Assembly: GCA_011375175.1 (NCBI GenBank)
Contig: DRME01000011.1
Span: 1 to 37,721 of the forward strand
Origin: Deltaproteobacteria bacterium
Lineage (GTDB): Bacteria; Desulfobacterota; GWC2-55-46; DRME01
Direction of reading: 5' to 3'
Length of the DNA: 37,721 bases
Below, piece by piece: positions 7,010-37,721 of this stretch. How positions within the stretch are numbered: the first letter of the stretch is position 1; the number at the start of each line of letters is the position of its first letter. Both the position numbers and the translations under genes were made by a program. Below the pieces are notes generated by a model, which did not search any database, was not told the DNA's origin, and saw nothing but the letters and a program-made list of their open reading frames with translations.

Positions 7010-7432
7010 CGTGCACGGCGTGGCGCGCAGGGACCGTGAGCCTGGAGAAGACCTTCCGAAGAAGCGGGGGCGTGGCGCGCAGGGGGGCGCAGGGGGGCCG
7101 CAAGGGGGCGCAGGCTTGCGTCTCGTCAGGGCTCGCAGGTTGTCCGTAATATGACGGCGCGGCCCGGGGGAACGGGCCGCAAGGGCGTAAAAAATCCCGC
7201 CTGCGGCGCGGCCCGATCCCCGGGGCCGCGCCGCAGGCGGCGGGCGTGGGGGGAATCCCCCGGACTTCTTCTTTGGGCTGAGGGCCCCCGTCTGCTTCGG
7301 CGAACGCAGGGACCGGCGCCGCTCGAGGAGCATGGAAAGTCTCTGGAGAGGGGATGGGGGGAGGCCGCGGGGTCTTCCCCGCTCGGCAGGCAAGGGAAGA
7401 CTTCTTACCGTTGAAAGGAGGAGAGAAGTTAG
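7010..7432. other. truB-rpsO intergenic region with strong hairpins
   Basis: 423 bp with no supportable gene. It holds G-rich runs near 7080-7112, a small hairpin (7159-7166 with 7173-7180), a very stable 18-bp stem (7197-7240) and a short stem-loop near 7363-7385 (cgggg/ccccg). It may carry rpsO leader regulation, since S15 autoregulates its leader in E. coli, but no specific fold is recognisable. A 19-bp word (7173-7191) is the exact reverse complement of 10181-10199. Confidence 0.5.
7189..7240 (-). terminator. Strong hairpin, terminator-like on the minus strand
   Basis: A perfect 18-bp GC stem (7197-7214 with 7223-7240, loop of 8) is flanked on its left by an A run (7189-7194). Read on the minus strand this is a hairpin followed by TTTTTT, the form of an intrinsic terminator. 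No minus-strand gene is visible to its right. It may block antisense transcription, or be part of a repeat. On the plus strand it lacks a T tract. Confidence 0.45.
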
Positions 7433-10060: not shown

Positions 10061-10300
10061 GACTCTGATTCGTTACCGCAGGGGAGACTGTCCGCGCAAT
10101 GGCCGCGGGCCCGCGTCTCTCCGCCCCCCTCGAAGATGCGGCGGCCCGCGTGAGGGTCGGGCCGTGTCAGGGGGAAACTCTTTACGCCCTTGCGGCCCGA
10201 ACCTCCCGCGGGCCGCGCCGCTGGGCGCCGAAAATCCTGGAGGGAGGCTGAGGGACCGGGGCTGCGGCCCTTTTACCAGGAGGTCCCCTCGGGTGATGGG
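10061..10300 (+). repeat. Diverged GC-rich copy (E) of the dispersed palindromic element
   Basis: Landmarks occur in the same order as in copies A-D: an outer CTCTGATT near 10063, a first hairpin flank (GGGGAGAC), CCCCCTCGAAGAT for the left arm of the big stem, TTTACGCCCTTGCGG, then AAAATCCTGGAGGGAGGCTG for the right arm, GAGGGACC, a ggggctgcggccc mini-module with TTTTACC, and GGTCCCCTC closing the third hairpin. Most A/T positions have become G/C. The relationship is by eye and not aligned computationally. Confidence 0.65.
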
Positions 10301-17782: not shown

Positions 17783-18016
17783 GGAAGCTCTGATTAATTA
17801 CGCTGGGGGAAACTTTCTGTAGAAAGTTTCCCCCAGACCCCCTTCAAAGACTTTTAATTCCCTGCGGATCATCCCGATTTTGCTTGTGCAAAATCGGGAT
17901 GATCCGCAGGGCGTTAAAAGTTTTTGGAGGGAGTCTGAGGGAACCGTGGGTCTATGACCCGTGGGTCCATGACCCTTTACAAAAAGGTTCCCTCGGTGCG
18001 ATGAATCAGAAATTCC
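17783..18016 (+). repeat. Dispersed palindromic element, copy A
   Basis: About 234 bp. Hairpin I is a perfect 15-bp stem (17803-17817 with 17822-17836, loop TGTA). Hairpin II has arms of about 49 bases (roughly 17834-17882 with 17887-17935) with about six mismatches. Hairpin III has GAGGGAACC closing on GGTTCCCTC, with two tandem copies of a 15-bp mini-palindrome (gtgggtcYatgaccc) inside. The left end is GGAAGCTCTGATTAATTAC; the right end matches it imperfectly in inverse orientation. No open reading frame of its own. Confidence 0.9.
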
Positions 18017-22385: not shown

Positions 22386-22699
22386 GGGGCGATGCCGCTT
22401 TATTACACCGGGGGAAACTTTCTGTAGAAGGGCCATAGGCCCCCGTTTCCCCCAGACCCCCTTCAAAGACTTTTAAATCCCTGCGGGTCACCCCGATTTT
22501 GCTTGCAAAATCGGGGTGATCCGCAGGGCGTCAAAAGTCTTTTGAGGGAGTCTGAGGGAACCGTGGGTCTGTGACCCTTTTACAAAAAAGTTCCCTCAGG
22601 GTAATTAATCAGAGCTTCCTTAACAAAAGGCTCCGGCAGGGCGAGTCGGGTCTTCCCCGGGGGGCGCGGCCCCCTTGCGCCGCCGAAGAGGTGAAAGAG
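22361..22699. other. hpf-ptsN intergenic region
   Basis: 339 bp without a gene, containing the end of the hpf hairpin, repeat copy B (22395-22619) and about 80 bp of leader before ptsN. An open frame running from the repeat into ptsN is not a real N-terminus. Confidence 0.7.
22395..22619 (+). repeat. Dispersed palindromic element, copy B
   Basis: About 225 bp, same orientation as copy A. Hairpin I carries an extra inner mini-palindrome (gggccataggccc) in its loop. Hairpin II has the core pair ggtcaccccgattttgc and gcaaaatcggggtgatc, differing from copy A on both arms. Hairpin III holds one gtgggtctgtgaccc module. The right end, read in reverse complement, is GGAAGCTCTGATTAATTAC, identical to the left ends of copies A and C, so it defines the terminal inverted repeat. 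The left end has decayed. Confidence 0.9.
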
Positions 22700-30903: not shown

Positions 30904-32391
<1,488 letters not shown>

Positions 32392-34270: not shown

Positions 34271-34346
<76 letters not shown>

Positions 34347-34386: not shown

Positions 34387-34510
34387 ATCCGCTCCCGCAA
34401 GTGTCCCGCTCTCTTTACAGCACGGCGACGGCCTCCACACTTCTCCCCCTGCGCTCCCTGGCCAGGCCGGGGGCGACGACTCTTTTGTAGCGCGTTGCGC
34501 GAGGCCGCGC

Positions 34511-34584
34511 CCGCTCCGCTCCGGGAGCGGCCCGCGCCAGGCGGGGTCGTTACGCCTTTGCGGCCCGCTCCCGGAGCGGAGCGG
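34511..34584. repeat. 20-bp perfect inverted repeat with 34-bp loop
   Basis: The arm at 34511-34530 is exactly complementary to 34565-34584. Each arm is itself nearly palindromic (ccgctcc-g-ggagcgg), so nested hairpins or a cruciform are possible. The loop contains gttacgcctttgcggcccg (34549-34567), two mismatches from a 19-bp word at 10181-10199. Confidence 0.75.
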
Positions 34585-34620
34585 ACGCGGAGGCGGACCG
34601 ACACATACACAGGCGCAGAG

Positions 34621-37589: not shown

Positions 37590-37616
37590 GGGCTCCTCCC
37601 TGACATCCACGTCTCC

Positions 37617-37721
37617 TGTTGATTACCCTGGGGGAAACTTTCTGTAGAAAGTTTCCCCCAGACCCCCTTCAAAGACTTTTAATTCCCTGCGGTTCATCCC
37701 GATTTTGCTTGCAAAATCGGG
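37617..37721 (+). repeat. Dispersed palindromic element, copy D (cut by the window end)
   Basis: Starts with a degenerate left end (GTTGATTACCCTG). Hairpin I is identical to that of copy A (15-bp stem, TGTA loop). The left arm of hairpin II follows, with core gcggttcatcccgattttgc and the first part of the right arm (gcaaaatcggg) before the sequence stops. It lies just upstream of the minus-strand hydrolase gene, so its relation to that gene's promoter is open. Confidence 0.88.

Follow-up and report, generated by a model that had tools for sequence, protein, structure and literature searches.

The DNA analysed here, referred to as the window, is the entire contig C11 (37,721 bases) of a 2.49-Mb genome assembled in 138 contigs and 98.6% complete. 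A preliminary description, made from the letters alone, placed in it four copies of a palindromic element, at 17783, 22395, 30904 and 37617 (the last one partial), and all four were confirmed at those places. A fifth copy, absent from that first list, was also found. The copies, together with the parts of the complete one, are the following:

17783..18016, + strand: copy A, complete, with end, hairpin I, hairpin II, hairpin III and inverted end; TTTT at both flanks
17783..17801, + strand: left terminal inverted repeat of copy A, GGAAGCTCTGATTAATTAC
17803..17836, + strand: hairpin I of copy A, CTGGGGGAAACTTTCTGTAGAAAGTTTCCCCCAG
17837..17932, + strand: hairpin II of copy A, a 24-bp self-complementary stem between conserved flanks CCCCCTTCAAAGACTTTTAAT / GTTAAAAGTTTTTGGAGGG
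17933..18000, + strand: hairpin III of copy A, short inserted palindromes included (two 15-nt inserts, GTGGGTCYATGACCC)
18000..18016, - strand: right terminal inverted repeat of copy A, with 2 mismatches
about 22388..22619, + strand: copy B, with a diverged left end; TTAA follows the intact right end
30904..about 31106, + strand: copy C, left end intact and right end lost; on the 5' side of a gene that begins near 31135
37619..37721, + strand: copy D, 97% like copy A over 93 nt; the contig end cuts hairpin II
10058..about 10309, + strand: fifth copy, degenerate and GC-rich, with the landmarks ordered alike (GGAGACTCTGATTCGTTAC ... GGAGGGAGGCTGAGGGACC ... GGTGATGGGGAGGC)

Copy B carries one short additional palindrome in hairpin I and another in hairpin III. 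Three of the window copies sit between co-directional genes, and in window 37591-37721 copy D is found immediately upstream of what is likely the ribosome-binding site of a minus-strand gene, whose expression it may influence. As RNA, the elements fold far better than dinucleotide-shuffled sequences, with z values of -17.1 for copy A, -16.6 for copy B and -12.4 for copy C, and copy A folded as single-stranded DNA still reaches z = -15.4. The alternative folds proposed at the outset, either three hairpins or one long arm, are both possible in RNA folding: copy A favours the three hairpins (-151 kcal/mol versus -132 kcal/mol when the long arm alone is allowed), copy B favours the long arm and copy C is nearly even between the two.

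The genome-wide search for further copies revealed hundreds with the same ends: 449 ends of the type GGAARYTCTGATTWATT at two mismatches or fewer in the 2.49 Mb, against 0 for a reversed-pattern control. Context statistics were obtained from a 731-kb sample composed of 40 stretches plus the window, where 51 pairs of ends face each other. The lengths of the elements cluster at 74 and 88 bp, corresponding to the ends around a single hairpin, and at 204, 218 and 232 bp, corresponding to three hairpins with 0, 1 or 2 added palindromes of 14-15 nt and of the type GTGGGYCTGTGRCCC. A few elements of 258-361 bp hold a second repeat. A second dispersed palindromic repeat, GGTTCGGGCCGCAAAGGCGTAAA...CCCGCCTGGCGCGGGCCGAACC, has members in the window at 34505-34590, adjoining a tRNA at 34271-34343, as well as at 7166-7191 and 10181-10206; about 60-70 of its half-sites were counted in the 731-kb sample, and it is sometimes inserted within three-hairpin elements (L143 2017-2377, L145 2819-3169).

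A relaxed search yielded 161 elements in the 731-kb sample. All 124 that could be placed are intergenic, the remaining 37 lying at stretch or contig edges, and none falls inside a called gene, the gene calls being made within this analysis. Per kb of gap, convergent gaps have 1.04 elements, co-directional gaps 1.44 and divergent gaps 1.73; of those located in co-directional gaps, 40 point the same way as the genes and 44 the opposite way. The single orientation pointed out in the preliminary description therefore holds within the window but not across the genome, and is a small-sample effect. Contigs C11, C20, C32, C59, C100, C107, C110, C113, C116, C137 and others of this genome end in or beside an element, so that the assembly probably undercounts the copies; in turn, the element family explains the frequent breaks of this assembly, many contig ends being within copies.

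In regard to mobility, the flanks of the 51 end pairs were compared for target duplications. Exact identity at 4 bp was found in 18 of them, in comparison with the 2.8 expected from shuffled partners (none of 5000 shuffles reached 18), and no excess was observed at widths of 2, 3, 5 or 6. The consensus of the duplication is YTAR, and a 4-bp YTAR is the target duplication typical of the IS5 group. Equivalent results were obtained in G035, a genome of the related genus g10, where exact 4-bp duplications flank 7 of 12 same-ended elements of 137-143 bp. The examination of insertion polymorphisms in genus g10 also revealed clean empty sites, which concern same-ended elements with another interior, the collection holding no close relative of the window's genome. 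Locus L169 has CTCTGATAA-[element]-ATAAATAAG where it is occupied and CTCTGATAAATAAG at the empty site of G009, with ATAA on both sides of the element versus a single ATAA in G009. The element of L167 is likewise absent from a clean empty site in G009, and the site of L168 is empty in G015. No clean empty site was seen in G009 for L166, where that genome has a different sequence, nor for L168, whose locus is occupied in G009 by a degenerate copy.

At 74-361 bp the elements are too short to contain a transposase gene, and the window's genome gave no match to PF01609 or NF033581. Earlier candidates in the order were fragments, and it was a query with the N-terminal part of the transposase that led to a complete insertion sequence (IS) in a related genome of the same class (G049:C140, L197 173-1394). 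This IS of 1222 bp has window-type ends on both sides (GGAATCTCTGATTTATT ... in L197, compared with GGAAGCTCTGATTAATT in the window), so its terminal inverted repeats are those of the elements. Its open frame of 327 aa scores 310.6 bits with NF033581 (cut-off 140), together with 84.2 bits for PF01609 and 75.3 bits for PF05598, both above their cut-offs; its flanking 4-mers, TTAG and CTAA, differ. Two further genomes have the same association. An IS of G041 with most of its gene deleted keeps the same ends (L083 1303-1857), and in G012, which has 283 ends, a transposase gene starts shortly behind the same end at the extremity of contig C49, with further transposase gene starts at other contig ends.

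The transposase sharing these ends in G049, G041 and G012 identifies the element as a MITE of that IS. The non-autonomous mobile element envisaged in the preliminary description has thus been borne out by the shared ends, the 4-bp duplications, the empty sites and the transposase between the same ends; the family, which it left unassigned, can be placed through its mobiliser in the IS5 group, and no Rfam family was matched. We conclude that the element very probably represents a high-copy, gene-less MITE family derived from an IS5-group insertion sequence. The 17-19 bp at the element ends (GGAARCTCTGATTAATT) are those of the IS, and in such a scheme they would be recognised by an IS5 transposase acting in trans that would insert the element at YTAR and duplicate 4 bp. 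The transposase may since have been lost from the window's genome or may lie in an assembly gap, which would leave the present copies mostly as orphans. The palindromic interior travels as cargo and does not itself confer mobility. Every feature of IS5-group MITEs that could be tested was found, and the copies make up a new family of MITEs whose interior is unusual. Neither module, ends or interior, was found described when the literature library was searched by topic and by sequence. Virus and plasmid collections gave no match to the interior or to the end pairs, a weak result for viruses as exact patterns were used.

The ends and the interior behave as separate modules. Across the same order, and leaving the window's own genome aside, the ends reach 0-283 copies per genome, and they are nearly absent elsewhere in the phylum. 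The same ends surround a different palindrome, CATTGCGAG...CTCGCAATG, about 141 bp long, in many of the genera that belong to families f3 and f5. Conversely, family f5 has the three-hairpin interior without window-type ends: its flanks carry other ends, called T2 (GCAGGnTGCTGAAAAA), at 27 of 65 flanks (four mismatches or fewer) versus 0.3 expected in shuffles, and the window's ends (T1) at 1 of 65. The few well-kept T2 pairs mostly show TA on both sides, and T2 ends seem to target TA; the elements bearing them look like another MITE system, one that uses TA as its target. T2 ends also occur around an unrelated interior, GGCGTACA..GAAAAGTACGCC, at the f5 loci L033, L103 and L170. An element with window-type ends and an exact CTAA duplication sits inside a T2-ended element at L170 1500-1642, a nesting that yields relative ages. 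Other palindromes (GTTAGGYCCGATGGAYGAATGTGAT..., AACTGAGATTGCAAACC...) replace, or sit in, hairpin I or III at the same hairpin position in several copies of genus g10 (G009 and G015; L105, L108, L109, L111, L112, L115), which is nested insertion.

The half unit of the three-hairpin module is AAAAGTYTTTGRAGRGRGTYTGRGRGAAMCTTTYTRYARAAAGKTTYYCYC, with GGGGG in the left half versus GAGAGA or GAGGGA in the right half. This asymmetry is kept in families f1, f3 and f5, making a single origin likely, and the three-hairpin interior probably arose once. We propose tentatively, as a possibility that we hold with less than even confidence, that this interior is an independent module moving between unrelated transposition systems (IS5-type ends and YTAR in families f1 and f3, and in f5 ends that target TA) while its centre diversifies by repeated self-templated copying. 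If this were true, the loci, each with its own perfectly paired stem, would constitute a natural record, genome-wide and still being written, of inversion by template switching or through cruciforms in bacteria.

The interior also changes in place. Of 9 orthologous f5 loci whose two flanks match across species, 5 show an inversion of the element, as in the pair L102/L107, where the flanks are 96% identical. The pair L041/L087 has the same stem and orientation with a reversed loop (AGCTTCC / GGAAGCT), and centres in the window's genome differ likewise (TT/AA and CCTGG/CCAGG). In an alignment of 33 copies, of which 32 belong to f5 and the remaining one to G017 of f3, the central stem is distinct in all 33, each one self-complementary, with a median of 13 uninterrupted pairs between the arms versus 3 when arms are swapped between copies; the observed arm-pairing sum was reached in none of 2000 permutations. 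Compensatory changes are seen in hairpins I, II and III, hairpins I and III being nearly invariant. Once settled, the palindrome is rewritten: its centre and its entire orientation invert, and the sequence of one arm is transferred to the other. Polymerase template switching or cruciform recombination is the most likely mechanism. Such copying together with inversion keeps the stems complementary despite sequence drift. Among the outcomes of polymerase template switching between inverted repeats, PMC8604942 describes two products, arm homogenisation and spacer inversion. Since both occur together here, we consider template switching the likeliest cause of the rewriting, with somewhat better than even confidence.

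An unlikely alternative is that the elements are bidirectional transcription terminators or mRNA-processing hairpins kept by the host, mobility being past history. The intergenic position of every placeable element, the very stable hairpins, the retention of the element by sister species at 9 orthologous loci and the nearly invariant hairpins I and III with compensatory changes would all suit this explanation. However, the density per kb of gap is lowest between convergent and highest between divergent genes, the reverse of a terminator pattern; orientation to genes is random, three of the window copies lie between co-directional genes and no hairpin has a T run directly after it. For an intrinsic terminator, defined by a GC-rich hairpin with a T run directly after it and by enrichment at 3' ends or in convergent gaps, neither the T run nor the convergent-gap enrichment was found, and neither terminator nor oriented-RNA functions are supported by the position and orientation tests.

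Quite unlikely, in turn, is an interior that acts as a structured RNA, for example a regulator, hitch-hiking on MITEs, with selection on the RNA driving the covariation. The strong covariation of the central stem and of hairpins I and III favours it, as does the asymmetry of the halves conserved across three families. Stem covariation could indeed stem from selection on RNA, but such selection would account neither for the inversions nor for the random orientation: with the whole element inverted at five of the nine loci, no strand is favoured. Moreover, the part with the most structure, the central stem, conserves neither sequence nor length, and no Rfam family was matched at gathering score. 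A tRNA was the sole Rfam match in the window, and other loci gave sub-threshold matches, mostly to microRNA models. The bistable RNA signal suggested in the preliminary description survives in so far as two folds are possible, while the random orientation to genes and the in-place inversion oppose a strand-specific signal.

Spread as ERIC- or REP-like palindromes by a RAYT/HUH transposase or another non-IS5 route is extremely improbable and largely refuted by the target duplications and the complete IS, since a size of about 204 bp, palindromy and intergenic position recall ERIC and YPAL but the 17-19-bp terminal inverted repeats, the 4-bp YTAR duplications and a DDE transposase between the same ends are marks of IS5-group DDE elements, and HUH elements, to our knowledge, produce no 4-bp target duplication. 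A REP/RAYT palindrome (no target duplication, a tetranucleotide tag, an HUH transposase) was also discarded as a candidate, the copies having 4-bp duplications and a DDE partner.

The IS5-derived MITE is the preferred reading, and the family can be compared with known systems. Bacterial MITEs are usually described family by family, with their interiors regarded as leftovers. Here, a single interior is found on two types of ends and a single type of ends with several interiors, a pattern extending over many genera within one order, and palindromes invert and are rewritten in place yet stay paired. They offer natural loci with known flanks for dating and counting template switching and cruciform inversion. 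ERIC and YPAL are long imperfect intergenic palindromes of enterobacteria, found in both orientations and with insert variants, and they resemble the present elements in all these respects; they differ in sequence, ends and target site, and the source of transposase is identified here. The Correia/NEMIS elements of Neisseria, which are processed by RNase III, are likewise MITEs with terminal repeats, long hairpins and hundreds of copies, but they duplicate TA, not the 4-bp YTAR found here. REP palindromes tagged with GTAG/CGTC, 20-40 bp in length, are dispersed and extragenic as these are (PMC3733652), but have neither terminal repeats nor target duplications of the kind seen here. The closest likeness is with the IS5 group (NF033581, transpos_IS5_4) and its MITEs: the ends are common with the 1222-bp IS, the duplication is a 4-bp YTAR, and the elements have no gene of their own, are intergenic and reach high copy number. 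The family differs from that group in its interior, which is an unrelated palindromic cargo instead of an internally deleted IS, in its number of copies, very high by bacterial standards, and in having no mobiliser in the genome.
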